Shown here: in pieces, positions 19,515 to 64,000 of the stretch
How positions within the stretch are numbered: position 1 is the first letter of the stretch
Layout: each line of letters opens with the position of its first letter
Assembly: GCF_024919275.1 (NCBI RefSeq)
Contig: NZ_JANWGH010000003.1
Span: forward strand, 595,677-659,676
DNA length: 64,000 nucleotides
Reading direction: 5' to 3'
Source of the DNA: Algoriphagus limi
GTDB lineage: Bacteria > Bacteroidota > Bacteroidia > Cytophagales > Cyclobacteriaceae
Program-made: the position numbers and the translations under genes
Notes under the pieces: generated by a model
Told to the model about the DNA's origin: nothing
Database searches by the model: none
The model's input: only the letters and a program-made list of their open reading frames with translations

Positions 19515-19895
19515 ATGAAATCAGTAAAAATTGCTTGGTTTGAAATTCCTGTAGAAGATATGAGTAGGGCGATTAAATTCTATGAGAAAGTTTTTGATTG
19601 CCAGCTGGATTTTCAGGATCTTGGAGATTTTAAAGTGGCTTTGTTTCCAGTTGAAAGTGGGAGTGAAGGAGCTTCCGGCAGCCTTGTTTATCACAAAGAG
19701 TTCTATACACCCAGTGCTAATAAAGGAAACTTGATTTATTTCCAGACTGAAGATTGTGGGGAGGAATTAAGTAGAGTAGAGGAAGCTGGAGGAAAGGTTA
19801 TGATTTCCAAGCGTCAAATAAATCCCGAGCTGGGTTTTATGGGAGTATTTATAGATTCAGAAGGGAATCGTATTGGTATTAGATCCAAATCTTAA
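19515..19895 (+). CDS. VOC (glyoxalase/bleomycin-resistance fold) family protein
   Basis: 126 residues, one VOC module pair. It begins KIAWFEIPVEDMSRAIKFYEKVF, the classic first beta-alpha-beta unit. A second unit spans LIYFQTEDCGEELSRVEEAGG to MGVFIDSEGNRIGIRS, with the Glu/Asp metal-side positions near the end. Family members are small metal-dependent or non-enzymatic proteins; the substrate is unknown. It lies 30 bp after the propeller gene and is probably co-transcribed. About 1 kb without a protein gene follows. Confidence 0.85.
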   Translation: MKSVKIAWFEIPVEDMSRAIKFYEKVFDCQLDFQDLGDFKVALFPVESGSEGASGSLVYHKEFYTPSANKGNLIYFQTEDCGEELSRVEEAGGKVMISKRQINPELGFMGVFIDSEGNRIGIRSKS

Positions 19896-20052
19896 GCTCC
19901 GGGATATTTTTAAAAGCGAGTTGGATTTTCCCGGTAACTCTTTCAATCAAAGAAATAGCAGTCTACAGATAAATTATTTTTGGGATTGAATAGATCTGTT
20001 CGATCCTTAGGCAACCAAAACACTCATAATTTTAATGGGATAATGCGTTTTT

Positions 20053-20078
20053 GCTGATGGAAATCAGCTATTATTTTT
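20053..20078 (+). terminator. Possible terminator downstream of the VOC gene
   Basis: GCTGAT, loop GGAA, ATCAGC, then TATTATTTTT. A 6-bp stem with an imperfect T-tract, about 160 bp after the VOC stop and upstream of the structured-RNA promoter. Confidence 0.4.
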
Positions 20079-20172
20079 CAATTGTGGATAAGTAACAGAA
20101 TTTTGTTTATAAGCTGTTGAAATCATATATATTTTGTTGTGATAAATTGTGGGAAAATAAAATTTTAAATAG

Positions 20173-20203
20173 TTGGAAAGTAAGGAAATCTTGCTCAACT
20201 TTG
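20173..20203 (+). promoter_or_regulatory. Candidate promoter of the structured RNA
   Basis: TTG at 20173-20175, a 20-bp spacer, then CAACTTTG at 20196-20203, one mismatch from the Bacteroidota -7 element TAnnTTTG. It predicts a start near 20210-20215, just before the first hairpin. Confidence 0.45.
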
Positions 20204-20212
20204 ATATTACCA

Positions 20213-20813
20213 AGTGAGAGATAAATGGTCGGAAAACGTTCCGGATCTTGGTTTGACAGTTTGGGATCAGGCACAAAGGGGAATTATCGAAAGATAAATT
20301 TCTGAAACGGACTACCGCAGAAGTGCTATCAGGATGAGTTGAGTTTGAGAAAAATCTTCGGATTTACTCAAATTTCTGTCGCTGCTACTGGCTGATGATT
20401 CAGTCGAGCTTCTTGTCGGTCTTAGATCGATAACGTTGCGAGCATGGCAGATTAATCAGCGTACAGAGAAGCTTCGGCTTCAATGTCATCTGGCACAAAG
20501 GAGATATTTCGAAAGAAATACTTGAAACGGGTTACCGCAGAAGTGTCATTAGATCCACCCATTCGAAAATCGAAAGATTTTCCTGGGCTTCAGGTGTGAA
20601 GGGCAGCGTTTTTCGAAACAAAGCTGAGACGGGCAACCGCAGAAACACGACATGATGTTCGGTTGGGAATACTCTTCGGAGTAGCTTCAAATTGAAGGTT
20701 TCCTGCTGCTTGACAGATGGAGCCACGAACTGTAGCTTGGCGCAGTTTAACAATTTCGGTTGTTGGATTGTGGAACGGGAAGTAATCGAAAGGTTGCTTC
20801 CCGTTTTTGTTTT
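20213..20813 (+). ncRNA. Large structured RNA with a threefold repeated tetraloop-rich domain (class not recognised)
   Basis: No protein frame fits here, but helices crowd the plus strand. Three related modules lie at about 20265-20330, 20488-20554 and 20594-20648. Each holds a purine-rich AAGG, an internal hairpin, GARACGG, a CGG-tetranucleotide-CCG hairpin (loops ACTA, GTTA, GCAA) and the invariant ACCGCAGAA, closed by an outer helix: GCAC/GTGC, TGGCAC/GTGTCA and GTGT/ACAC. Internal hairpins are TTATC-GAAA-GATAA and TATTTC-GAAA-GAAATA in modules 1 and 2. Further hairpins: CGGAA-AACG-TTCCG (20230), AAATC-TTCG-GATTT (20352), GAAGC-TTCG-GCTTC (20468), GAAAATC-GAAA-GATTTTC (20565), TACTC-TTCG-GAGTA (20670). 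Changed but still paired bases argue for conserved RNA. A candidate promoter and a strong terminator frame about 600 nt. I find no RNase P, tmRNA or 4.5S signature; function is unknown. Confidence 0.75.
20775..20813 (+). terminator. Strong rho-independent terminator ending the structured RNA
   Basis: The stem is ACGGGAAGTAATC with GGTTGCTTCCCGT (13 pairs, counting G-U), capped by a GAAA tetraloop and followed by TTTTTGTTTT. The T-tract orientation fixes the transcript on the plus strand. Confidence 0.85.
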
Positions 20814-20936
20814 AAAGGCTATTGAATGATTCATTTTTTGCTTCAAAGTATTTTTCTACCTTTTATATCCATTTAACTGGAATATTTATCTGGTTTTATT
20901 TTGCTTTTGCCATATTTCATTTCAATCAAACAGAAA

Positions 20937-22640
20937 ATGTCTAATCTCAACCTGAAAGCCCAAGCCCAAAATACCTATGATGCCATTGTAATCGGATCGG
21001 GAGCAAGTGGAGGCTGGGCAGCAAAAGAACTTTGTGAAAACGGTTTGAAAACCTTGGTGTTGGAAAGAGGGCGCATGGTTCGGCATATTGAGGATTATCC
21101 TACAGCTTCTAAAGCACCTTGGGAATTTGAATTTCGGGGTACTGTCCCAATTGAGAAACGTTCGGGAATAGGTGCTGCCAGATGGGGAAGGGAAGAGACT
21201 ATGCATTGGGCTTTGGCTGAAGATGAGCAACCTTACATAGAGGAAAAGCCTTTCCGATGGTTTAGAGGGTACCATGTCGGAGGAAAATCCCTGCTTTGGG
21301 CTCGAGGAACACAGCGTTGGTCTGATTTTGATTTAGAAGGCCCGGCTCGTGATGGCTATGCAGTGGATTGGCCTATTCGATATAAAGATTTGGAACCTTG
21401 GTATAAGCATGTTGAGACCTTTGTTGGGTTCTGTGGCTCGAAGGATGGCTTAGATGTCCTTCCCGATCAGATTGTTCAGCCAGGCTTTGAATTAAGCTGC
21501 GTCGAAAAGTACTACAGTGAGCAACTCAAGAAGATTTATGGAGACCGTTATCTGATTCAGGGTAGATGTGCTCATTTGACCGATCCGCAGGAAATCCACA
21601 AGCAGCAAGGTAGAAATAAGTGTCAGCATCAAAATATGTGTAATCGAGGCTGTATTTATGGAGGATACTTTTCAGCAAATGCAGCTACTTTACCTTGGGC
21701 TGAGAAAACCGGAAATTTGACAGTTCGTCCAGATTCTGTCGTAGAATCCATTATATATGAAGAGGAAAAAGGCAAGGCAATCGGTGTTCGAATTATCGAT
21801 CGCCTTACCAAAGAAGCCATGGAGTTTTACTCTAAGATCATTTTTGTCAATGCTTCCACGATTAATACGAATGCCATTTTATTGAACTCAAAATCTTCGA
21901 GGTTTCCTAATGGATTGGGAAATGACAATGGCTTGATGGGAAAATTTATGGCTTGTCATAATTACCGTGGCAAAGGCTATGCTACTTTCGAAGGCTTTTT
22001 AGACCAAGCTACCGAAGGAAGACATCCAGGTCATGCCTATGTGCCGAGATTTAGAAATGTCTATAAACAAGAGACTGATTTTTTGAGAGGATATGCTATA
22101 GGAATGTCTGGAAGTAGAAGAATCGATTCCGACACCTCTGGGATTGGTCACCAATTGAGAGATAATCTTCTGAATAGAAAATATGGAGTTTGGGGAATGG
22201 CAGCTTGGATGCAAGGGGAGGTTGTCCCGATCGAATCCAATCATATGCGACTCAGCGAATCTGAAACCGACAAATATGGAATTCCTAAAATCGTTATGTC
22301 TGTGGAATGGACTGAGAATGATGATAAGATGACAGAAGATTTCCTCCAGCAGCAATATGAAATGTATGAGCGCATGGGATTCACTAATATTGATGTGAGC
22401 GATTCGGGAGCACCTCCGGGATCGGATATTCATGAAATGGGAGGTGTCCGAATGGGAAAAGATCCTAAAACATCCTTATTAAATAAACACAATCAATTGC
22501 ATGCTTGCCCAAATGTGTTTGTGACTGACGGAGCTTGTATGACAAGTACTAGTACACAAAATCCTACCTTGATGTTTATGACTTTGACAGCAAGAGCAGC
22601 AAATTATGCCGTGGAGGAATTAAAAAAGATGAACTTATAA
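20937..22640 (+). CDS. GMC family oxidoreductase (sugar/gluconate dehydrogenase-like)
   Basis: About 567 residues from the ATG at 20937; an in-frame TTG at 20901 gives an unlikely 12-residue extension. The FAD-binding motif VIGSGASGGWAAKEL lies near the N-terminus. YHVGGKSLLWARGTQRWSDFD matches the GMC signature. The C-terminal HEMGGVRMGKDP and CPNVFVTDGACMTSTSTQNPT carry the catalytic-site region. A cysteine cluster (CQHQNMCNRGC, C-x5-C-x3-C) sits mid-protein. Relatives oxidise sugars or polyols, often with a small Tat-exported partner subunit that is not seen here. No signal peptide is visible. The isomerase/epimerase gene follows after 30 bp, suggesting co-transcription. Confidence 0.9.
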   Translation: MSNLNLKAQAQNTYDAIVIGSGASGGWAAKELCENGLKTLVLERGRMVRHIEDYPTASKAPWEFEFRGTVPIEKRSGIGAARWGREETMHWALAEDEQPYIEEKPFRWFRGYHVGGKSLLWARGTQRWSDFDLEGPARDGYAVDWPIRYKDLEPWYKHVETFVGFCGSKDGLDVLPDQIVQPGFELSCVEKYYSEQLKKIYGDRYLIQGRCAHLTDPQEIHKQQGRNKCQHQNMCNRGCIYGGYFSANAATLPWAEKTGNLTVRPDSVVESIIYEEEKGKAIGVRIIDRLTKEAMEFYSKIIFVNASTINTNAILLNSKSSRFPNGLGNDNGLMGKFMACHNYRGKGYATFEGFLDQATEGRHPGHAYVPRFRNVYKQETDFLRGYAIGMSGSRRIDSDTSGIGHQLRDNLLNRKYGVWGMAAWMQGEVVPIESNHMRLSESETDKYGIPKIVMSVEWTENDDKMTEDFLQQQYEMYERMGFTNIDVSDSGAPPGSDIHEMGGVRMGKDPKTSLLNKHNQLHACPNVFVTDGACMTSTSTQNPTLMFMTLTARAANYAVEELKKMNL

Positions 22641-54824: not shown

Positions 54825-54912
54825 AGAGAGGTGTCCGAGTGGTTGAAGGAGCACGCCTGGAAAGTGTGTATACCCCTAAAGGGTATCGAGGGTTCGAATC
54901 CCTTCCTCTCTG
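54825..54912 (+). tRNA. tRNA-Ser (anticodon GGA)
   Basis: An 88-nt cloverleaf with a long variable arm, as in class II tRNAs. The acceptor stem AGAGAGG pairs with CCTCTCT, the discriminator is G, and CCA is not encoded. The anticodon stem CACGC/GTGTG holds the loop CTGGAAA, giving anticodon GGA, which reads UCC/UCU serine codons. The variable arm is TACCC-CTAAA-GGGTA. The T-loop is GGTTCGAATCC-like. It is followed by a hairpin terminator and then by an AT-rich island, so its 3' end is a plausible integration target. Confidence 0.96.
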
Positions 54913-54919
54913 CATAATA

Positions 54920-54958
54920 AAAACCTAACTATTTGATTTAATGATGGTTAGGTTTTTT
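54920..54958 (+). terminator. Terminator after tRNA-Ser
   Basis: AAACCTAAC, a 17-nt loop, GTTAGGTTT and a T-run; a 9-bp stem only 8 bp after the tRNA. Confidence 0.85.
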
Positions 54959-55076
54959 ATTTTTCGTAGGGGTGTGATTTGGGGTGTGGATTATTGAAGC
55001 TTATCAAGAAAATCTTCCATGATTTACTTTATTATGGTATACCAGTACAGAGCTTATTTTGTGAGTTAAGGCCCTT

Positions 55077-55469
55077 CTATTTGTCTGATGTTTCATTGTC
55101 GAAAAAAAACTCCGTATTTGAAAAGACTTCCTTAAGTCCGTTACAGGACCTGTTAAGTTGAAATTGGACACACTCTCTTTTCCCTTTCAGAACATCATCG
55201 ATCATTACTAATATTTTTCGCTGTTGGTCTGTAGTCAGTCTCCCAATTGGCTCTATATCGGAATAAGCAAGCATGGTTTTTTCATAGGCCTTGAGATAAT
55301 CTTGTGAATTCTGATAGCGTTCCTTGCTCATTCTCATAGCCTTGCTTGTATAAATCATGCTAGTGATTTCTTTTAATTCCTCCAGCAACCTTTTAAAAGT
55401 ACCGACAATATACCCTGGATTGAACCCTTCTTCGGAGGTGTGATATTTCATTTTTTCTCGATCGTACAT
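55077..55469 (-). CDS. Hypothetical helical protein
   Basis: 130 residues, not recognised. Mostly helical: YIVGTFKRLLEELKEITSMIYTSKAMRMSKERYQ and LTTDQQRKILVMIDDVLKGK. No membrane segment, signal or catalytic motif is visible. It lies at the tRNA end of the island, where an integrase would often be. The codon usage looks normal for an AT-rich gene, and the frame has no frameshift, so it is probably real, but support is limited to length and composition. Confidence 0.5.
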   Translation of the reverse strand: MYDREKMKYHTSEEGFNPGYIVGTFKRLLEELKEITSMIYTSKAMRMSKERYQNSQDYLKAYEKTMLAYSDIEPIGRLTTDQQRKILVMIDDVLKGKRECVQFQLNRSCNGLKEVFSNTEFFFDNETSDK

Positions 55470-55793
55470 TGGTTTTCTATTTTAACCTCATTTGGTAGAG
55501 CTAAACTCAAATGGTAGAAAAATTTTAATTTTTAGATCTAAACTATTTAACCTAATTAATTTAATCAATACCATAAACTGGGGGTTTTTCTAATAAACCT
55601 TGTTTCATGGCTTTTAATATTCTAGAAAAGTTTAATTGATACTTTCACACACACATGCGGAATTTTTTTTCCGCTTTCTTACAAAGTATTTATTTAGAAG
55701 GGTTCTATTAGAAAGATTTAATTGTAGGGTATTATTTAATAAGTACTATTTATAGGTTCGTACTTAGATTCATGAACATGTTTATCGTTTGTT
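55470..55793. other. AT-rich non-coding gap inside the island
   Basis: 324 bp of low-complexity AT-rich DNA with no ORF worth reporting. Short T and A runs are common. I see no clear hairpin, iteron or palindrome. Confidence 0.6.
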
Positions 55794-56558
55794 CTAGGGT
55801 GGGTTCTTTCGAAGTTGATCGAAGTGGCCTTTTACCTTTTGCAAGATTCTTTCCTTTTCTTTCACCCGGAGTCTTGCTTTAATATCCTTGAGAGCTTTCT
55901 TTTCTTCTACTCTGTAAGCAAGGTTTTCAAAAGACAAGGTTAATGAAAAGGTAATTCCCCTTGATTTTGGGAGGTAAACGAAACGGTTATACTTCTCCAA
56001 GTATTCGAATATTTTTTTTCTTCTTGAGCTTTTTGGTTTCATCCAATATTGAATCTTTTCAGGTATGGGGTTCTTTATGCCATTTGATTCTTGACTGGGA
56101 TATCCAGCCATTCTTGCTAAAAGAAGATCATTACTCACCTTAGCCCAAGACCTTTTCTGGATTATTGATTTAAAAGCGGTAAAGGCAAGAAAACATACAA
56201 ATCTAAATTCATCCTCTTCTTCCTTTAAACTAAAGTAGGTTGATATATGAATACCTGTCCATGGGCTACTGGTCATTTCGGAAATTCTCTCAAATAGGTA
56301 TTTGCCATTGGATTTGATTTCTTGAATTCGGATCGTTGGGATTTTAACCTCCCAGCTTTCCATAAAATCATCAATGTTCTCAAAAATGGCATCTTCCGAA
56401 TAAACCATCTGGTAAACAGCATAGTCAATTATATTCCTAAGGCATCTTTTAGGTTGATTTAGAAATCCTTGGAGAAGTTGAATTGGAAAATTCAGGAATT
56501 TATTTCTAATCTCCATATCTGAGACCCTCCTTGTCCTTGGTCCAAAATCTAGTGACAT
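55794..56558 (-). CDS. Hypothetical basic protein of the island
   Basis: 254 residues, family not recognised. The N-terminal half has aromatic-rich helices (NIIDYAVYQMVYSEDAIFENIDDF, VCFLAFTAFKSIIQKRSWAKVSNDLLLARMAG). A basic linker (KPKSSRRKKIFEYLEKYNRFVYLPKSRGI) and a strongly charged C-terminal coil (EEKKALKDIKARLRVKEKERILQKVKG) follow. Such layouts occur in DNA-binding plasmid or element proteins, but no replication-initiator motif can be identified. It lies 84 bp downstream of the next island gene. Confidence 0.65.
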   Translation of the reverse strand: MSLDFGPRTRRVSDMEIRNKFLNFPIQLLQGFLNQPKRCLRNIIDYAVYQMVYSEDAIFENIDDFMESWEVKIPTIRIQEIKSNGKYLFERISEMTSSPWTGIHISTYFSLKEEEDEFRFVCFLAFTAFKSIIQKRSWAKVSNDLLLARMAGYPSQESNGIKNPIPEKIQYWMKPKSSRRKKIFEYLEKYNRFVYLPKSRGITFSLTLSFENLAYRVEEKKALKDIKARLRVKEKERILQKVKGHFDQLRKNPP

Positions 56559-56642
56559 TCCTTATGTGACTTGAAATGCAGGTATTAGCAAGGATAGAAG
56601 ATATTCTATCCTTGCATACATTGAATAAATAAAATGAAATCA

Positions 56643-57191
56643 TCAGGATTTTTTATTTGGATAGTTTTTAGATCCCGATTTACATGCATCATTTAATATG
56701 CTTCTTAAAACAAATTCAGAGGCCTTTCCAGCTATTAGAATTTCTTGAATTAGTTTATTGATGACCTTGACTCGGTCTTTGCATTCAGGGTAAAAGCCTT
56801 CAAGCAGATAAAGGTTGAATGAAGACCTATCAGGCGAGAAACTTACCAATACAAGGTGGAGGTCTTTTTCATCCTTTTGGTAGGTCCTAAGCCTGCCGTA
56901 ATACCAATCTGAGAAAAGTGTCTTGTCTAGGGAAGACAGGAACTTAAGGCATCCCTGTGAATTTTTAAATGTCAATAACTCACCCAAGATTTGGCCCCTT
57001 GTGAATTTCTCAATTAGAATTTTTCGAGGAATACGTGAGTCATCTGGAGCTGAATCAGAATGTTCTAATTTCTGCTTATACCAGGACTTTCCATCAACCA
57101 CTCTAAAATGGCAGGGCTGGAAAATTTTTGTATCTTCAAGCATCCTACTGTCTAAAGACACATTTGCGGAGGTTTGGTGATTCCTTTTCAT
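56643..57191 (-). CDS. Hypothetical protein downstream of the HTH gene
   Basis: 182 residues, not recognised. It has mixed alpha/beta character: RILEDTKIFQPC-like start, RTYQKDEKDLHLVLVSFSPDRSSFNLYLLEGFYPE, then a C-terminal helix (VKVINKLIQEILIAGKASEFVLRSIL). No signal or membrane segment. It starts 2 bp after the HTH gene stop, so the two are almost certainly co-transcribed and may work together, for example as element maintenance genes (inference). Confidence 0.65.
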   Translation of the reverse strand: MKRNHQTSANVSLDSRMLEDTKIFQPCHFRVVDGKSWYKQKLEHSDSAPDDSRIPRKILIEKFTRGQILGELLTFKNSQGCLKFLSSLDKTLFSDWYYGRLRTYQKDEKDLHLVLVSFSPDRSSFNLYLLEGFYPECKDRVKVINKLIQEILIAGKASEFVLRSILNDACKSGSKNYPNKKS

Positions 57192-57193
57192 CT

Positions 57194-57469
57194 TTACCTC
57201 CGCTTTTTGTTTTCCAATGCTTCTAGAACTTTTTCTAGATCATACCGAATCACAGATCCTACCTGAATGAATGGGATTCTGTTTTCTTTTCTCCACCTTG
57301 ATATTGTGGGCCGTGTTACACCAAGCTTAGCACCAAGCTCATCTGTGTCGAGAATGGTTTTCGTTGGGGTTTCTGTCTTTGAAGTCTCAGGGTGTTTGAG
57401 CTCAATTAGTAATCCTTCAATGTTGGCAAGTCTTTCATCAAGGATTTCGAAAGGGTTTTTTATCCTCAT
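57194..57469 (-). CDS. Excisionase-like helix-turn-helix protein (HTH_17 type)
   Basis: 91 residues. An N-terminal helix (FEILDERLANIEGLLIELKH) is followed by a MerR-like/excisionase winged helix: ILDTDELGAKLGVTRPTISRWRKENRIPFIQVGSVIRYDLEKVLEALE. The pattern of HTH followed by IPFxxVGxxxRY is the hallmark of Bacteroidota excisionase/DNA-binding proteins found on conjugative and integrative elements. It probably controls the downstream gene or assists excision. A perfect 18-bp palindrome lies 50 bp upstream and may be its operator. Confidence 0.85.
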   Translation of the reverse strand: MRIKNPFEILDERLANIEGLLIELKHPETSKTETPTKTILDTDELGAKLGVTRPTISRWRKENRIPFIQVGSVIRYDLEKVLEALENKKRR

Positions 57470-57519
57470 TTCTGCAATTGTTTAGTGTTGCAGAAATGTT
57501 ATTCACTTTTTATATATAG

Positions 57520-57537
57520 AACCGGTTCGAACCGGTT
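57520..57537. promoter_or_regulatory. Perfect 18-bp palindrome upstream of the HTH gene
   Basis: AACCGGTTCGAACCGGTT is fully self-complementary and GC-rich in AT-rich surroundings. It also reads as two ACCGGTT units 10 bp apart. It lies 50 bp before the HTH start, without a T-tract, so an operator is more likely than a terminator. Confidence 0.5.
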
Positions 57538-57545
57538 TCAAAAAA

Positions 57546-58310
57546 TTATTCTTCCATAGTAAGCCTTGATTCAAGTATTTTCATTTCATCAGTTGCCTTT
57601 TGTTTTTTGTCCTCCGGAAGCCTTTCAATCGCCCAATTGTATTCTTCAATTCTGTTTAATTTTTTAGTATTTGATTCCAATTCAATGCATTTTCCAAATC
57701 GTCTAATTGCATTTGTGAAAACGGAAAAAGTTTTTTTCAATTTCTCTCCGTTTTTGTATCCATAATCCCTGGCAACTTCATCAAAATTATGGTTATAAAC
57801 TTTATCGTTGGTGAAGTATAAATAAAGAGCTAACCTGTCAATAGTAACTCCGTCTTTATACTTTACCTTAGGGCTTTCGGTTTCAGTTTTAATTTTTTTT
57901 TCGGTTTCATTTAATTCTTCAATTGCCTTGTTTGTTTCGATTTTCTCTTCGGTTGACCTTTGGTTTGAATTTGATTTCTTTTCTTTAGTGGATTCAATTG
58001 ATTTAGCAAGTTGATTCAACTCAAAAATCACCTTATCTGTCGAACCATCTGGAAAAGCCTTGTTTTGTCTCGTTAGTTCTGCTTCCTCAGCCCAATAAGC
58101 TTTGAAATGGTGGAATCTTGATGAATTTCCGCTAATCTTTCCAAATTCTTTTGCATCGAGGTATTTATGGCGAATTAATTCGATTCGCTGTTTTGCTGTT
58201 TCAAATCGTTTTTCCTTGATAAGATTTAAAATGTGTCTTTTGAAACCAAATACTCCTTCAATTTTGAAGTTGAATGGATCCCATTGATCCAAGGTTGTTC
58301 TTTCATCCAT
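57546..58310 (-). CDS. Hypothetical charged protein with central coiled coil
   Basis: About 254 residues from the ATG at 58310; a TTG at 58340 would add 10. The N-terminus (RTTLDQWDPFNFKIEGVFGFKRHILNLIKEKRFE) is helical. The middle (KSIESTKEKKSNSNQRSTEEKIETNKAIEELNETEKK) is highly charged and probably a coiled coil or disordered linker. The C-terminal part (DGVTIDRLALYLYFTNDKVYNHNFDEVARDYGYKNGEKLKKTFSVF) resembles a small helical DNA-interaction domain, but no family can be named. It is the first gene of the minus-strand island run. Confidence 0.65.
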   Translation of the reverse strand: MDERTTLDQWDPFNFKIEGVFGFKRHILNLIKEKRFETAKQRIELIRHKYLDAKEFGKISGNSSRFHHFKAYWAEEAELTRQNKAFPDGSTDKVIFELNQLAKSIESTKEKKSNSNQRSTEEKIETNKAIEELNETEKKIKTETESPKVKYKDGVTIDRLALYLYFTNDKVYNHNFDEVARDYGYKNGEKLKKTFSVFTNAIRRFGKCIELESNTKKLNRIEEYNWAIERLPEDKKQKATDEMKILESRLTMEE

Positions 58311-58392
58311 TCTTTCTCTGTTTTGATAAAAGTTACCCAAAAATGATAGACAGTCTTTTTTGGTTTAATAATTTCCCTTGTTTTAAATGTAG

Positions 58393-58500
58393 AGTTTTGT
58401 GAAGTTCAAGGTTAAGTTTTGATAAGTCTTAGTATAAATCTTGCTATTGTTACTAGGCTAACTTTTACTAAAGCGCAAAATGAAGTTTTGTCAAGTTTTG
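58393..58500. repeat. Four copies of AGTTTTG upstream of the island operon
   Basis: Direct copies start at 58393 (AGTTTTG), 58414, 58483 and 58493 (AAGTTTTG), all in the same orientation. The pairs are spaced 21-22 and 10 bp apart, i.e. on one helix face. They lie in the region that should hold the promoter of the first island gene. Confidence 0.45.
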
Positions 58501-58779
58501 ATGGATCGTTCTATTCTAAAAAGCTGCCTTGAAAAGTGAGTCCAGTTCATTATATACTAGCCTTTGTTATTCTTTCAATATTAACTCTTCTTACACCGTA
58601 AAAATTAATTATACAAAATTATTTTGTTTGTAAAAAAGGGGATACCATTGCCAAGAATTTATCCTGATCTTGGATTTACAATAATCTAGGAATCTAAATT
58701 GATACTGCCTTTCTTGTCTATTTTCCAACCATTCTTCAGAAAGAGATATAGAGGATATTCGGGACTTTAGAACATAGAA
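58501..58779. other. Non-coding stretch at the right edge of the island
   Basis: About 280 bp between the AGTTTTG repeats and the PorP/SprF stop. AT-rich, no ORF, no clear inverted or direct repeat, and no copy of the tRNA-Ser 3' end. Confidence 0.55.
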
Positions 58780-59739
58780 CTACCAAATACTGATGTCATT
58801 GCTCGGGTCCCGCTCATCCTTACCGAACAGGTTGAATACGGCAGTGAACTCATGAATCCTTCCGGGGATTTGGTAGGAATTGGCCACGGGAAATTCAAAA
58901 ATATAGCCGATCCGAAGCCGGTCCGTCAATATTCCGAACTGGAAGTTGCTCGCATAATCAAACCGGTGTCCACCTCCAACCCATACCCGGTCCATCAGAA
59001 GAACCTTCAGGTTGACATCAAACTGGTCCGGCAGATTCTTCTGCGAGCGGAAGAATGCGTTGGTAATAACCGCAAGGTTGGGACTCAAGCGCTCCCGGAA
59101 TCCCGCCTGAAGCATTTTACTGGCAGGATACCCATCCATAAATTCATCCCCTGATTTTATTCTGCCTCCATTTACCCGGTGCATACCATAACTCACATAG
59201 TATTTACGGTGAGTAAGGGCCATGCCAATATTAAAATCCAAAATCTGCATATCGGAGAACTGTCCGAAATACTGGCCCAGGGTAGGGTCATTCTGCTCTT
59301 CGGTAGTTAGGGAATTCCCATCCAGCCTGATCTGCTGGTAGCTAAATCCCGCACCCAGTCTCAGGTTATGTTTTTCACTGATCCGTATTCTGGATGCATA
59401 GGCAACAATCAACTCGGTCTCACGAAATGCACCATAACTGTCATGCAATAAATTAACGGATGCAGCATTTTTTCCCATCAGATCAGGATCCTGCTCGCCT
59501 GACAACTGGCCAAAATCCATTTCCGCACTGAAAAAATAGGTTTTCGGTGCCCCTTCTATCCCGGACCACTGGTTTCGAACAAAACCCCTCAGGGTACTTC
59601 CCTCATAACCAGTCAGTCCCGGATTGAAATAGCTCTGAAAATGCGAAAACTGGCTGATATATTTTCGGGACTGGCTATAGCCATTCAGGGCAGCGAGGAT
59701 GCCAACCAATGCCACGAGTAGGAACTTTCTAAATCTCAT
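58780..59739 (-). CDS. PorP/SprF family type IX secretion outer-membrane protein
   Basis: 319 residues. Signal peptide (KFLLVALVGILAALNGYSQ), then YISQFSHFQSYFNPGLTGYEGSTLRGFVRNQWSGIEGAPKTYFFSAEMDF, the PorP/SprF signature (NPAxxG...RxQW...P). Amphipathic strands of a 14-stranded barrel follow (LRLGAGFSYQQIRL, KYYVSYGMHRVNGGRI, FQFGILTDRLRIGYIFEFPV). In gliding bacteria these proteins are secreted-adhesin partners of the T9SS. It lies 72 bp downstream of the giant adhesin gene on the same strand, the usual adhesin-PorP/SprF order, so it probably serves that adhesin. Confidence 0.92.
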   Translation of the reverse strand: MRFRKFLLVALVGILAALNGYSQSRKYISQFSHFQSYFNPGLTGYEGSTLRGFVRNQWSGIEGAPKTYFFSAEMDFGQLSGEQDPDLMGKNAASVNLLHDSYGAFRETELIVAYASRIRISEKHNLRLGAGFSYQQIRLDGNSLTTEEQNDPTLGQYFGQFSDMQILDFNIGMALTHRKYYVSYGMHRVNGGRIKSGDEFMDGYPASKMLQAGFRERLSPNLAVITNAFFRSQKNLPDQFDVNLKVLLMDRVWVGGGHRFDYASNFQFGILTDRLRIGYIFEFPVANSYQIPGRIHEFTAVFNLFGKDERDPSNDISIW

Positions 59740-59785
59740 CTTTTTTCAACTAAAAATTATAAAATAATACTCCGGAAACAATCCT

Positions 59786-59803
59786 GCGGGAAATGAATCC
59801 CGC
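59786..59803 (-). other. Hairpin between the adhesin and PorP/SprF genes
   Basis: GCGGGA/TCCCGC with a 6-nt loop, without T-tract. Placed in the 72-bp intercistronic gap, it could stabilise or partition the mRNA. Confidence 0.35.
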
Positions 59804-59811
59804 CGGTTCTT

Positions 59812-62800
59812 TTATCTCCTCAAAAGGTTCAAGACTCCTCGTCTCACCTCACCGGTTTCCACTACTTCGATCACCCAGAAATAGGCCCCCACTGAAAGCT
59901 CTATACCGTTGAACGTGCCGTCCCATCGAACATCAGCATCCTCTGTATAGAACAGTCTTCTATAGTCTTTGTCATACACCATGATCCTTACCCCTTTGTA
60001 GTACCTCAACTGAGGAAGTCCCCAGGTGTCATTGATACCGTCACCATTCGGCGTGAATGTATTGGTCACCTCTAATTGGGATAATGGAATTCGCTGTCTG
60101 GTGATCAGGAAGGTCTTTTGGATGATGTTTCCGGCTCTATCTTCTACCTGAAGCAATACCTCAAACTGGGTTTCGCCCGGTCTTTGTTCAGAGGAACTCC
60201 AGAACAGAATACCGTCTATCACTTCAAACAGGTCATTGTCTTCAAATCCTTCCGGCAGACTCAGTATATGCTGATCATCCGAAGGATCGATAACCGTGAA
60301 CACGCCTATTTCCTGGAAGAATTGTCCCTGTACAGGTAGGAATTCAGCGGAGCTCAAAGTCACATCCTGAGGCGCAGGTTTAGGCAATATCTCGATACTG
60401 AGCTGGGCCTTGAGCCCATAGGTGTTGAACAATCCTTCCGGTAAAGTGAATTCTCCGAAGAAGATATAGACTCCGTTTACCAATGGGTTATAGTTTGTCA
60501 AATCCCATACGACAGGAAGGTCCATCATATCTCCCGTACCGGTAATCACCATCACTTCCGTACTCAGCTCGAGTTCATCCACCAAGGTTCCCCATTCAAC
60601 TGTCAGGGCCTGAGGGATAACATCTATCACTGACCTAAGCTGTATATGGTCTGGTACTCCATCCCCGTCGGAGTCTAAGAAATCCTCTGGATCGGTTGGA
60701 CTGGTTCCCTGTACCTCTTCCACATAATCAGGAACGCCGTCTCCGTCACTGTCTTTGAAGTCTTCTCCGTCTGTTGGATCGGTACCCTGTTCATTCTCCA
60801 CGAAGTCTGGCACACCGTCTCCGTCTGAATCACGATAGTCATTAGGATCTTTTGGATCGGTTCCCTGCTCCAACTCGACATCATCCGGAACCCCATCCCC
60901 GTCCGAATCGGTAGTGATAATTTCAAATTCGGCTCCGGTATAGCTGATCGTATAATTATCTCCTGCACTTAGGGATCCCAAATTAATCGCATAGAAGCCG
61001 ACAGCTTCTCCTGCTTCCCTTTCAAGGGAACCGGTCAAAATAGACACATCCTCTCCCGGGGCAAAACCGCTTGCCGAATAGGTTAATACAGGATCAGATT
61101 GACCAAAGAGCTTGCTCTGACCCGGATTTGCTGTGATCGCCAGTGTTGCTGGAGTTATTTCAAGAGTAGCTTCCAATTCAAGGCTCGTGTAATTCGAACC
61201 GCCAATGGTAGCTGTCACTTCCTGGCTTCCTGTGTTTGTCCTTCCGTTATTCTCATAAGAAACGGTGGCTCCCTGAGGAATATCCCCAGTCACTGCAAGG
61301 TTTTTCTCCTGCCCGTCGTAGACAAAACTTTGATCCAAGAAAGACAATCCCGTAATCTCAGCAGGTGTAATGGTCAATTCAGCAGTCAGCTCTAAGGTCA
61401 CATAGTTTGAACCGCTGATAATTGCAGTCACCTCCTGAGTCCCTACATCCGTTCTGCCATTATCCGTGTAATCCACCGAGGTCCCTTCCGGAAGGTCTCC
61501 TTCTATCTGCAAGGATTTTTCTTCTCCATCATAGACGAAGCTTCCGTCTGCAAAGGTGATACCTTCAATCTCTGCCGGACTGATCGTCAGGTCAGCAGTC
61601 AACACCAAAGTGGTATAGTTAGAGCCAGAAATCGTCGCTGTCACCTCCTGCATGCCCACATCGGTTCTGCTGTTATTAGTGTAGGCTACCGTAGTTCCTT
61701 CCGGAAGTGTTCCCGAAATAGCCAGCGATTTAGCTGTTCCGTCATAGACAAAGCTTCCGTCTCCAAAGGTGATTCCCGTGATTGGGGCTGGAGTGATGGT
61801 CAGGTCCGCTTTTAGTTCAAGTGTTGTAAAGTTCGAACCAGAAATCGTGGCTGTTACTTCCTGCGTGCCCACATCGGTTCGGCTGTTGTTCGTGTAGGTT
61901 ACACTAGTTCCTGCTGGAAGTGTTCCCGAAATCGCCAGCGATTTAGCCGTGCCGTCATAGACAAAGCTTCCGTCTCCAAAGGTGATTCCGGTAATCGTAG
62001 CTGGAGTAATTTCAAAGTCTGCTCCTGTAAAGTTGATTGCGTAATTAGGGCCAGCATTTAAAGTCCCCAGATTTATTGCATAGATACCTACATCTTCTCC
62101 AGCAGCTCTGCCTAATGAACCAGTCAGAATATCTTTAGAATCGCCAAACTCAAAACCTTCTATTGTATATGGAAAGCTAGGATCAGCCTCACCGAATACT
62201 TTTGACTGGTTAGGAACCGCCTTGATTTCGAGTACTTTAGATGCAATCGTGAAATTTGCTGAAATAAATGTTATCGAATAGTTAGGCCCTGCATCAAGTG
62301 TCCCAAGATTAATCGGGTAGCTTCCAATATTTTCACCTGCTGATCTATTTAATGTGCCTGTCAGGATCGCATTTGTATCTGCACCTTGAAAACCAGAAGA
62401 AGTAAATGTAAGGACTGGATCGATGTCTCCAAATACCTTACTTTGATTTGGATTGGCAGTAATAAATAGCTCTGCTTTTTTTATGGACGCTTGTAATCCA
62501 GATGGGTATATAATCTCATAATTATCTCTGTCTGCACCATCCAAAGTAAGTCCTGTCACAGTGACTGAAATTGCTGTCCCTACTTCTGCTTGCGTAAAAT
62601 TCCCGAGGGCAGACCCTGAAACATATACATCATCAGCTCCAATACCAGTCACAACTGCTGTTCCTGATAAATTGGCTAATTTTGTTCCATCATAGACTTT
62701 ATCCAAAGCAGACAATCCACTTACTACAAGCGATCTTGGAGATATTGTAGCACTTGCGGTTGGTGAACTATCCAGGTCAAGACTATAACGTTCTGCATCA

Positions 62801-63999
62801 GTTCCTGAAAGTGTTACATCTATAATTTTAACCAACTTATTTGGCCCGGCATTTTTATCTTCAAACTCAACTTGAATATTACTAATAATAACATCGGTAG
62901 CACCTGATTTTAATCCTTCAAGAGCTAAAGAATTAGATGTTAATACAGCACTTTTGCTACCATCATATATCTTGTCTGATACTTCAAAATACCCTGATAT
63001 CGCAAGCAAAGGTTTTTTTATTTCAAAGTTCTCTGTCAAAGAAAACTCTCCTCCCATATAACTATTGTCAATCGCTTGAACCTTCCATTCAAAGGTCTTG
63101 CCCAATGCTTCCTCAGGATAATTCCAGACATATTCCGTTCCAAGCTGAGCATTACCCATTGCAGACAACAGCCTCCAACCATTTGATTCCAAGGCATGTG
63201 GACTGACAATATAATTATTCTGGTCCTTCTCACGTATGTAAACATTGTAGCTCAGTGAGGCCGTTGGTGTTGTATTATCTGTTGAAGGATCCCAAGTCAA
63301 AGTCACGGCTTTTGCTTCTGCATCCACACTAGAAGATAAATTATTTGGTGCAGAAGGAGCCGAATAGCTTACACTGTTCTCAACAGAGTTATTTTTATAT
63401 ATCGAAAAGTAACCTTGACTATTTAAATAATCTAGAGTTATATCCCCTATAACAATATCCAAATCCCCATCGCTGTCAAAATCACCCCAGCTTAAGGGTT
63501 CAGGTTCATACCCCTCAAAGTTTATAATTGAAAAGGATCCCGAATCATTTCGATAAATTCTGCTGATATTAAGGCTTGAATTAAATCCCTTCAGCAAAAT
63601 ATCTAGATCTCCGTCTCCGTCATAATCCCCCCATGCTACTAAAGGAAAGCTTGCGCCTATTAAGCCTGCATGGATATCAATAAAATTGCCCCCATCATTT
63701 CGATAAATACTCGTCGTTTCGACATTATTTGAATTAAAACCAGACAGTAAAACATCCAGATCCCCATCTCCATCGAAATCACCCCAAGCTACAGACGATC
63801 TTCCTCCAACCCCTTCCAAACCAGCATTTATATCTACAAAATTACCCGAATCATTTCGGTAAATTCTACTATACTTAATTAATCCTAAACCAACACCAGA
63901 TATTAATAAGTCTAAATCTCCATCTCCATCATAATCCCCCCAAGCTGCAGAACCAAGATGATTTCCTTCTATTTCTGCGTTTATATCATTGTAATTTCC
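59812..63999 (-). CDS. Giant repetitive T9SS adhesin (5' end outside window)
   Basis: At least 1395 residues; the frame stays open to the right edge, so the N-terminus and signal are not seen. Order of domains from the edge: three or four FG-GAP/VCBS repeats (WGDFDGDGDLDVLLSG, WGDYDGDGDLDILLKG), a fibronectin-III-like unit (ATVTLTWDPSTDN-like region), several MBG-type beta units (KVYDGTKLANLSG), three units of an MBG_2-like type (NPNQSKVFGDIDPVLTF), four near-identical 71-residue repeats, four thrombospondin-3-like calcium repeats (DSDGDGVPD), and a C-terminal gliding/CHU_C sorting domain (TNTFTPNGDGINDTWGLP, VRWDGTFNGIELSVGAYFW). It is predicted to be exported by the T9SS as a surface adhesin. 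Confidence 0.93.
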   Translation of the reverse strand, partial: GNYNDINAEIEGNHLGSAAWGDYDGDGDLDLLISGVGLGLIKYSRIYRNDSGNFVDINAGLEGVGGRSSVAWGDFDGDGDLDVLLSGFNSNNVETTSIYRNDGGNFIDIHAGLIGASFPLVAWGDYDGDGDLDILLKGFNSSLNISRIYRNDSGSFSIINFEGYEPEPLSWGDFDSDGDLDIVIGDITLDYLNSQGYFSIYKNNSVENSVSYSAPSAPNNLSSSVDAEAKAVTLTWDPSTDNTTPTASLSYNVYIREKDQNNYIVSPHALESNGWRLLSAMGNAQLGTEYVWNYPEEALGKTFEWKVQAIDNSYMGGEFSLTENFEIKKPLLAISGYFEVSDKIYDGSKSAVLTSNSLALEGLKSGATDVIISNIQVEFEDKNAGPNKLVKIIDVTLSGTDAERYSLDLDSSPTASATISPRSLVVSGLSALDKVYDGTKLANLSGTAVVTGIGADDVYVSGSALGNFTQAEVGTAISVTVTGLTLDGADRDNYEIIYPSGLQASIKKAELFITANPNQSKVFGDIDPVLTFTSSGFQGADTNAILTGTLNRSAGENIGSYPINLGTLDAGPNYSITFISANFTIASKVLEIKAVPNQSKVFGEADPSFPYTIEGFEFGDSKDILTGSLGRAAGEDVGIYAINLGTLNAGPNYAINFTGADFEITPATITGITFGDGSFVYDGTAKSLAISGTLPAGTSVTYTNNSRTDVGTQEVTATISGSNFTTLELKADLTITPAPITGITFGDGSFVYDGTAKSLAISGTLPEGTTVAYTNNSRTDVGMQEVTATISGSNYTTLVLTADLTISPAEIEGITFADGSFVYDGEEKSLQIEGDLPEGTSVDYTDNGRTDVGTQEVTAIISGSNYVTLELTAELTITPAEITGLSFLDQSFVYDGQEKNLAVTGDIPQGATVSYENNGRTNTGSQEVTATIGGSNYTSLELEATLEITPATLAITANPGQSKLFGQSDPVLTYSASGFAPGEDVSILTGSLEREAGEAVGFYAINLGSLSAGDNYTISYTGAEFEIITTDSDGDGVPDDVELEQGTDPKDPNDYRDSDGDGVPDFVENEQGTDPTDGEDFKDSDGDGVPDYVEEVQGTSPTDPEDFLDSDGDGVPDHIQLRSVIDVIPQALTVEWGTLVDELELSTEVMVITGTGDMMDLPVVWDLTNYNPLVNGVYIFFGEFTLPEGLFNTYGLKAQLSIEILPKPAPQDVTLSSAEFLPVQGQFFQEIGVFTVIDPSDDQHILSLPEGFEDNDLFEVIDGILFWSSSEQRPGETQFEVLLQVEDRAGNIIQKTFLITRQRIPLSQLEVTNTFTPNGDGINDTWGLPQLRYYKGVRIMVYDKDYRRLFYTEDADVRWDGTFNGIELSVGAYFWVIEVVETGEVRRGVLNLLRR
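60645..60915 (-). repeat. Thrombospondin type 3 calcium-binding repeats
   Basis: Four tandem units at the protein level with DSDGDGVPD and intervening EQGTDPKDP-like linkers (GTDPKD, GTDPTD, GTSPTD). Asp spacing fits Ca-loops, giving a rigid stalk before the C-terminal domain. Confidence 0.85.
61159..62010 (-). repeat. Four tandem 213-bp repeats in the adhesin gene
   Basis: Exactly four units of 213 bp (71 residues), each starting I-(T/S)-P-A and carrying FxxxSFVYDG, then NxRT, QEVTA and GSN. The first two units are nearly identical in DNA, and the fourth is the most diverged. Copy number can vary by recombination. Confidence 0.9.
63440..63999 (-). repeat. FG-GAP/VCBS repeats at the visible N-terminal part of the adhesin
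   Basis: Units of about 60 residues with WGDxDxDGDLDxL, IYRND and GxF/FxDI; at least four are recognisable up to the window edge and likely continue beyond it. They form a calcium-binding beta-propeller. Confidence 0.85.
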
Positions 64000-64000
64000 A

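Follow-up and report, generated by a model that had tools for sequence, protein, structure and literature searches.

Introduction

CsrB and RsmZ are sponge RNAs that present GGA hairpins as sites for the protein CsrA, and their synthesis is under signal control. In the phylum Bacteroidota not many hubs of trans-acting RNA are known, and a survey of 2017 reportedly arrived at 224 candidate RNAs. Among the trans-encoded sRNAs of Bacteroides are FopS and GibS; FopS has paralogues and combines a single-stranded 5' stretch with a terminator (PMC11697453, PMC7366714). The structured RNAs 6S-Flavo (RF01685), Bacteroidales-1 (RF01693) and Flavo-1 (RF01705) are listed in another report (PMC2864571). 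ROOL and GOLLD are phage- and prophage-encoded (PMC12286853).

Here we analyse a locus in Algoriphagus limi, lying in a stretch of 64,000 nucleotides that is called the window throughout. A preliminary description, made from the letters of the window alone, had read this locus as a new large structured RNA with repeated domains. Comparison with relatives supports that reading. It also indicates something that the preliminary description had not seen, namely that the repeated modules have expanded within a broader family, the distinguishing feature of which is its pair of ends. A free-standing structured RNA gene of about 605 nt is well supported, whereas its expression, partner and function are inferred.

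Results

A structured RNA gene with its own promoter and terminator

Between the upstream VOC-type ORF, which ends at 19895, and the downstream GMC-type ORF, listed as starting at 20901, no protein gene is credible, as had been claimed: the longest ORF listed in the RNA stretch has 104 aa, lies on the minus strand and begins with TTG. The plus strand folds with a z score of -4.0, none of 20 shuffles being equally good, compared with -1.3 and two of 20 for the minus strand. The features that the preliminary description had listed were found in the sequence where it placed them, among them several hairpin caps each of the GAAA and UUCG types, and the promoter and terminator that it saw as the frame of the RNA are both conserved on the plus strand in relatives. 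Its proposed start at 20213 needs to be moved: of 70 upstream regions compared, 99% have A at -2 relative to the CAAG box, making 20209-20211 the more likely start. In a full-length alignment of 19 four-unit RNAs, 78 of the 134 predicted pairs carry a double change that keeps the pairing. The existence of the RNA, its strand, ends, helices and unit structure (Table 1) rest on comparative evidence of this kind and are well supported.

Table 1. Predicted features of the RNA gene and its upstream region (positions within the window)
Feature	Position	Strand	Basis
Upstream direct-repeat box TTGTGGATAA, first of array	20082-20091	+	Position; boxes common in relatives
Degenerate direct-repeat boxes	20103-20112, 20137-20146, 20147-20156	+	Sequence
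-33 type promoter box TTGG	20173-20176	+	TTG at -38 to -36 of CAAG anchor conserved
-7 type promoter box AACTTTGA	20197-20204	+	Position; TT at -10/-9 conserved in relatives
RNA gene, about 605 nt	20209-20813	+	Inferred start to terminator; ends conserved in relatives; no transcript data
Core P1, 5' strand CAAGU	20211-20215	+	Pairs with GCUUG at 20735-20739; top mutual information
Core internal loop, 5' strand (GAGAGAUAAAU)	20216-20226	+	Conserved in members, partly by construction (used as anchor)
Core P2, 5' strand	20227-20229	+	Pairs with 20722-20724
Hairpin 1	20230-20243	+	Double changes at several pairs
Module 1 (three-way junction)	20269-20329	+	Model R1, 65.1 bits, E 2.3e-15
Linker hairpin, UUCG loop	20341-20373	+	Sequence and fold
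Degenerate second unit	20381-20468 (limits approximate)	+	Alignment A6, rows L001, L002, L045; not matched by R1
Linker hairpin, UUCG loop	20469-20480	+	Sequence
Module in third unit	20491-20549	+	R1, 54.6 bits, E 3.2e-12
Linker hairpin, GAAA loop	20563-20583	+	Sequence and fold
Module in fourth unit	20592-20651	+	R1, 54.5 bits, E 3.5e-12
Linker hairpin, UUCG loop	20670-20683	+	Sequence; 19-sequence full-length fold
3' domain (model R2)	20698-20813	+	87.8 bits, E 7.5e-16; own sequence in R2 building set
Core P2, 3' strand (20722-20724), and core-loop 3' strand, up to AACUGUA	20722-20734	+	Conservation, pairing, full-length fold
Core P1, 3' strand GCUUG	20735-20739	+	Mutual information of end columns
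3' hairpin, UUCG/UACG-type cap	20740-20772	+	12 of 12 pairs with double change in alignment A3
Intrinsic terminator, strong	20774-20813	+	Sequence; helix conserved, 5 of 9 pairs changed on both sides in A3

A scan of the whole window with Rfam 15 at gathering scores returned only a tRNA elsewhere in the window. When E values up to 1 were admitted for positions 19700-21300, a single sub-threshold match appeared on the other strand (20149-20214, E 0.44), overlapping the promoter and the first bases of the RNA gene. The same limit applied to 36 loci of relatives gave tRNAs, one TPP riboswitch and sub-threshold matches, none of them on the RNA. The claims that the RNA is novel and is not OLE, GOLLD or ROOL are borne out to this extent: neither the gene nor its copies in the 36 loci matched the models of those three RNAs or any other Rfam family. 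No title or abstract describing the RNA was found in the literature; an earlier description is not excluded, supplements and preprints lying outside the search. The class appears to be undescribed and matches no catalogued family that was tested.

A three-way-junction module with covarying helices

The module is a 60-nt three-way junction with the junction motifs AAGG, UGARA and CAGAA. Its consensus runs from an outer helix (module P1) through RAAGG, the hairpin P2, UGARA, a 3-bp helix with a mostly GNRA cap and CAGAA to the returning strand of P1. The motif that the preliminary description found to be shared by three modules, CCGCAGAA, ends them at 20315, 20535 and 20637, and the outer helices that it described as different in sequence yet paired are present as GGCAC/GTGC, TGGCAC/GTGTCA and GTGT/ACAC. 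Its count of three modules holds for the intact copies; the length of the RNA is that of four units, the second being degenerate, with the conserved core motif lost in the window and in two close relatives (L002, L045). Model R1, built from the module, finds three modules in the A. limi genome, all at this locus, and two further matches at E 0.75 and 9.8.

Relatives yielded 52 modules, of which 45 were aligned after the omission of two exact duplicates, three near-duplicates (L010_m1, L010_m3, L016_m1) and two ill-framed sequences (L003_m4, L006_m2). The structure leaves 93.5% of cells paired, against 74.1% in shuffled alignments, in keeping with the earlier inference that selection acts on the structure of the plus-strand RNA. 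Changes on both sides of a pair occur in 119 cells as opposed to 38.2 after shuffling, a value that none of 500 shuffles reached, and 12 of 14 pairs show a double change. When the structure was slid along the alignment, the maxima were 43.2% paired and 42 double-change cells. RNAalifold, run unguided, proposed nearly the same module helices, with kept double changes in 11 of 12 pairs. The preliminary description had also called for homologues with covarying helices in related genomes; they were found for the module, for the full length and for the core helices described below. Junction columns have a mean identity of 93% and helix columns 68%, although CAGAA was used to find the modules and AAGG to frame them, so that the constancy of the junction is partly a matter of construction. 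GNRA caps occur in 28 of the 45 modules, and UNCG-like caps occur too.

The two ends of the RNA form a conserved core

In 65 distinct pairs of ends, the highest mutual information between a 5' and a 3' position links position 4 with position 8 (G-C in 61, A-U in three and U-A in one), from which we infer that the ends of the RNA pair as CAAGU/GCUUG. A second helix, core P2 (GNN with NNC), is paired in 91.1% of cases compared with 77.3% after shuffling (0 of 2000 shuffles; 30 distinct strings, 119 members), and it also appears in the fold of the 19 four-unit RNAs. The strands GAGAGAUAAAA and ANAAUAACNGUA lie between P1 and P2. The end anchors were found with patterns that include part of these core-loop strings, and kinship among the sequences inflates the shuffle tests. 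A pseudoknot between CUGUAG and the 3' loop CUACGG was considered and rejected: it showed no double changes and several breaks, and the loops are read as UNCG-type caps.

The 5' segment GAGAGAUAAAAG stays constant near the 5' end in all size classes while the interior changes, in part by construction through its use as an anchor. That behaviour might be expected of a base-pairing, trans-acting sRNA whose seed is this segment and whose interior is only a stabilising body, an explanation that we regard as unlikely, if far from negligible. The complement of the seed, TTTATCTCTC, is not clearly enriched, being present at 11 places in the A. limi genome (one of them the gene itself) compared with seven for the reversed control, although a test with one 10-mer in one genome has low power. 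Moreover, the segment lies between two covarying helices, opposite another conserved strand, and so looks like one side of an internal loop. Base pairing with targets is still possible, but the simplest target count does not support it.

The number of units varies in steps

The distance from the 5' to the 3' box in module-bearing members is 189-203 nt with one module, 295-297 nt with two and 504-517 nt with four, giving about 105 nt for each added unit; the box distances of these members include no three-unit form. The RNA in the window, with 504 nt between its end boxes, belongs to the four-unit class, and its second unit is degenerate as in L002 and L045. Three copies (L127, L139 and one of those in L128) fall within 189-203 nt yet have no R1 match. 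Members without the module have 126-132 or 140-153 nt between boxes, and a recount over the 74 source hits of model R3 gave 180, 215-224, 280, 335, 420-427 and 503 nt for other members. In that recount two of the 74 values (9 nt) reflect chance inner matches and another two are absent, and the list of box distances includes chance or cross-copy pairs at 22, 133, 162, 338, 372, 462 and 562 nt. The 105-nt step is limited to the module-bearing group, since the interiors of the other members have different lengths. In other genera than Algoriphagus, the module-bearing RNA mostly has a single module and a length of about 300 nt; 21 such sequences of 295-303 nt, three of them from Algoriphagus itself (L015, L058, L062), keep double changes at 43 of 64 predicted pairs.

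Distribution among relatives

Matches in a DNA search were confined to the genus Algoriphagus (16 of 58 genomes, one of 22 genera). The module model R1 matched in 45 of 295 genomes and 15 of 84 genera of a family sample; R2, the model of the 3' domain, matched in 52 of 390 genomes and 19 of 129 genera of an order sample and in six of 296 genomes and three of 139 genera of a phylum sample. A 17-base pattern scan of named genomes produced at least 120 loci. Among the matches listed, R2 is found at E <1e-5 in 42 of 80 named loci, and in 28 of the other 40 loci; 41 of those 42 bear Bacteroidota-type titles and one, L151, is a metagenome-assembled genome labelled Chlorobiota. The other 38 named pattern loci, again among the matches listed, include a single R3 match (L154, E 0.0011), and in three of them (L168, L190, L204) the sequence ends before the 3' domain. 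R3 is a model rebuilt from 74 hits; its alignment leaves out L121, an R2 match of the order sample (E 5.5e-5) that was rejected because it looked like a chance match in a coding region. In a class sample R3 matched in 39 of 395 genomes and 20 of 196 genera. The position of the 5' box served as a check independent of R3: 15 of 26 class-sample loci have the box on the same strand, 201-624 nt upstream, and L262 and L265 also have one under a looser 3' pattern. The E values of all three models are rough, having been obtained with shortened calibration, and any member that went into a model is bound to match it. On this evidence the ends of the RNA recur patchily across several families of the class Bacteroidia. 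Loci labelled Bacteroidales gave no R1 match, and the module therefore cannot be the essential part of the RNA.

No plasmid or phage copies were found by nucleotide searches, including a blastn search of 50,697 phage records; such searches would miss divergent copies. Two viral loci found by the pattern have no R3 match. These results, set beside the encoding of ROOL and GOLLD in phages and prophages (PMC12286853), weigh against an RNA-only or RNA-scaffolded particle that multimerises through hairpin caps and junctions in the manner of OLE, ROOL and GOLLD. In favour of such a particle, the RNA is large, highly structured and rich in GNRA-type and UNCG-like caps, but the smallest members of the family have about 130 nt between the end boxes and no R1 match, and we consider a particle quite unlikely.

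Several further features were noted in passing. Two copies of the RNA lie close together in L116, L117, L118, L119 and L215, with an ORF between them in L116, L118 and L119. A contig with a Bacteroidales-labelled family member carries the TPP riboswitch (L166:4177-4273). About 160 nt upstream of the RNA in L051 there is a fragment resembling the 3' end of a tRNA or tmRNA, unreported in the Rfam scan of that locus, which is perhaps an attachment-site remnant. In the window, GC content falls after the tRNA at 54825-54912, being about 0.35 at 55-59 kb, and then climbs to 0.485 at 60-62 kb, accompanied by negative GC skew; positions 54825-64000 are possibly an integrated element next to the tRNA.

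Two classes of promoter

The 135 upstream regions collected were reduced to 70 by removing those at least 70% identical. Each had to hold TTTG or TTAG near -10, which makes the -7 type box partly a product of construction. The three bases of TTG at -38 to -36 are conserved in 86%, 87% and 60% of the 70 regions. Farther upstream are direct repeats 11 bp apart, with peaks at -74 and -63 of the CAAG anchor: at least one box is present in 66 of the 70 regions (mean of 16.2 in shuffled sequences) and at least two in 60 (2.3 when shuffled). Phased direct repeats also precede the Bacteroidales-labelled copies. The repeats (TTGTKGATAA) resemble DnaA boxes. GC skew, sampled in stretches, led us to reject linkage to the replication origin as a general rule: its sign change in G033 falls near 0.6-0.8 Mb, whereas the RNA lies at 3.46 Mb; for G172, where the RNA is at 3.40 Mb, early stretches point to a change near 0.44-0.88 Mb and the rest is noisy; G141 was too noisy to judge; and the RNA gene in the window has positive skew on either flank. 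A regulon sharing the double box was likewise not sustained, with three places in the A. limi genome and two for the reversed control.

Seven loci without paired boxes (L123, L124, L129, L135, L154, L185, L193), chosen among 10 that were inspected, make up a second class. L154 is a weak member, resting on the R3 match mentioned above, and L135, L154 and L193 each have one loose direct-repeat match. The palindrome TGA-N6-TCA stands at -49 in six of the seven and at -71 in the seventh; at -49, give or take one base, it occurs in none of the 70 upstream regions, a set that includes L185 of the second class. If transcription starts at -2, the centre of the palindrome is at -41.5, which is the place of a class II CRP/FNR site. 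By comparison of upstream regions, then, paired direct repeats accompany the conserved promoter of the main class, and in a small second class predicted CRP/FNR-type palindromes take their place.

The neighbours of four second-class loci were scanned, and a CRP-family gene was found near three (L123, L124, L129) and a NarL-type response regulator near L123 and L129. L129 also has a PAS kinase, a PPOX-like protein and a P-type ATPase as neighbours. Nine ORFs around L135 include no CRP-family, NarL-type or other L129-type gene; its neighbours are pyruvate:ferredoxin oxidoreductase, an NDP-forming type CoA ligase and DsrC/DsrE proteins. L154 and L185 have similar neighbours, judged by eye only. 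The two promoter types and the nearby regulator and fermentation genes fit a regulatory RNA more readily than a housekeeping one that serves transcription or translation in a fixed way, for example as a 6S-like regulator of polymerase. For the latter speaks the retention of the RNA in nine genomes of only 1.2-1.6 Mb, all from one family of the R2 order sample, eight of which have two matches 0.34-1.5 kb apart. Nothing was found when 6S-Flavo was searched for in the A. limi genome, but the controls were equally empty and the result is uninformative. The fold, however, is unlike the 6S hairpin, and together with the patchy distribution and the two promoter types this leaves a housekeeping function decidedly unlikely.

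No common cis target was seen: the neighbouring ORFs, read by eye, differ between 20 regions, and the next ORF downstream varies among members and is on the opposite strand in some loci. This is difficult to reconcile with a leader or riboswitch array that acts in cis on the gene next to it, with the modules as tandem aptamers, even though a compact junction with invariant nucleotides, present in tandem copies, does look like an aptamer. With its own promoter, a strong terminator and two ends that pair with each other, the RNA makes a poor leader, and we find that explanation scarcely credible.

Discussion

We propose that the locus in the window belongs to an uncatalogued family of trans-acting RNAs, regulated titrating or scaffold RNAs in which the core binds a partner and the modules add sites, and we give this a probability of roughly 0.42. 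The terminal core, consisting of P1, P2 and the conserved internal loop, would dock a conserved partner, for which a protein is the likeliest candidate, although there are no binding data. Each module may be a further binding site, in which case the number of partner molecules carried by an RNA would be set by its number of units. Upstream-bound regulators, acting at the direct repeats in the main class and at the CRP/FNR-type sites in the second, would switch transcription, and the RNA, by titrating or assembling its partner as a multivalent sponge or scaffold, would change the expression of other genes.

The steps of this proposal differ in what they rest on. Action in trans is inferred from neighbours, read by eye, that differ between loci; protein binding by core and modules is inferred from invariant junctions within variable helices; and a binding capacity set by unit number is inferred from stepwise growth. 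Of what would define a titrating RNA, the repetition of a unit within one molecule is observed and protein binding is only inferred. That the ends are constant while the interior is quantised in module-bearing members counts, as far as alignments can tell, in favour of a platform for a partner. Against it we count the lack of R1 matches in Bacteroidales-labelled loci, the decay of one module in the lineage of the window without loss of length, the interiors outside the module-bearing group that do not follow the 105-nt step, and the lack of an identified partner and of transcript data. The patchiness in the class sample is also odd for a global regulator, unless it reflects the limits of sensitivity.

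A more far-reaching version of the titrating or scaffold RNA is possible but somewhat unlikely: the invariant core would recruit a dedicated protein, lineages would tune its capacity by gaining or shedding 105-nt modules, and paralogues would be wired to different transcription factors, one of them in a CRP/FNR-type circuit linked to low oxygen. If so, this RNA would act as a global hub of post-transcriptional control, in a phylum where little is known of such hubs. Irrespective of function, the locus represents an apparently undescribed class of RNA that occurs in several Bacteroidia families and for which the structural evidence is unusually clear. Its natural size series, with no module, one, two or four units, makes the role of added modules directly testable, and the second class, with its putative CRP/FNR-type control, offers a physiological entry point.

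Among described systems, OLE, ROOL and GOLLD share with this RNA the character of large, ornate, free-standing bacterial RNAs defined by covariation whose function is open or only partly known. It differs from them in matching none of their models and in a family size that extends from about 190 nt to more than 600 nt, and from ROOL and GOLLD in showing no phage association in nucleotide searches, with the reservation about divergent copies made above. Like 6S-Flavo, Bacteroidales-1 and Flavo-1, it is a structured RNA of Bacteroidota, but those three are catalogued in Rfam whereas this RNA and its copies in 36 loci match no family there. With FopS and GibS it shares, on our reading, the character of a trans-encoded RNA of Bacteroidota; unlike FopS, it has two ends that pair and a highly structured body. 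The nearest analogy in how it may work is with CsrB and RsmZ: repeated putative binding sites would be carried on one signal-controlled RNA, with the difference that the repeat is a three-way junction and not a GGA hairpin, and that it has no Rfam match.
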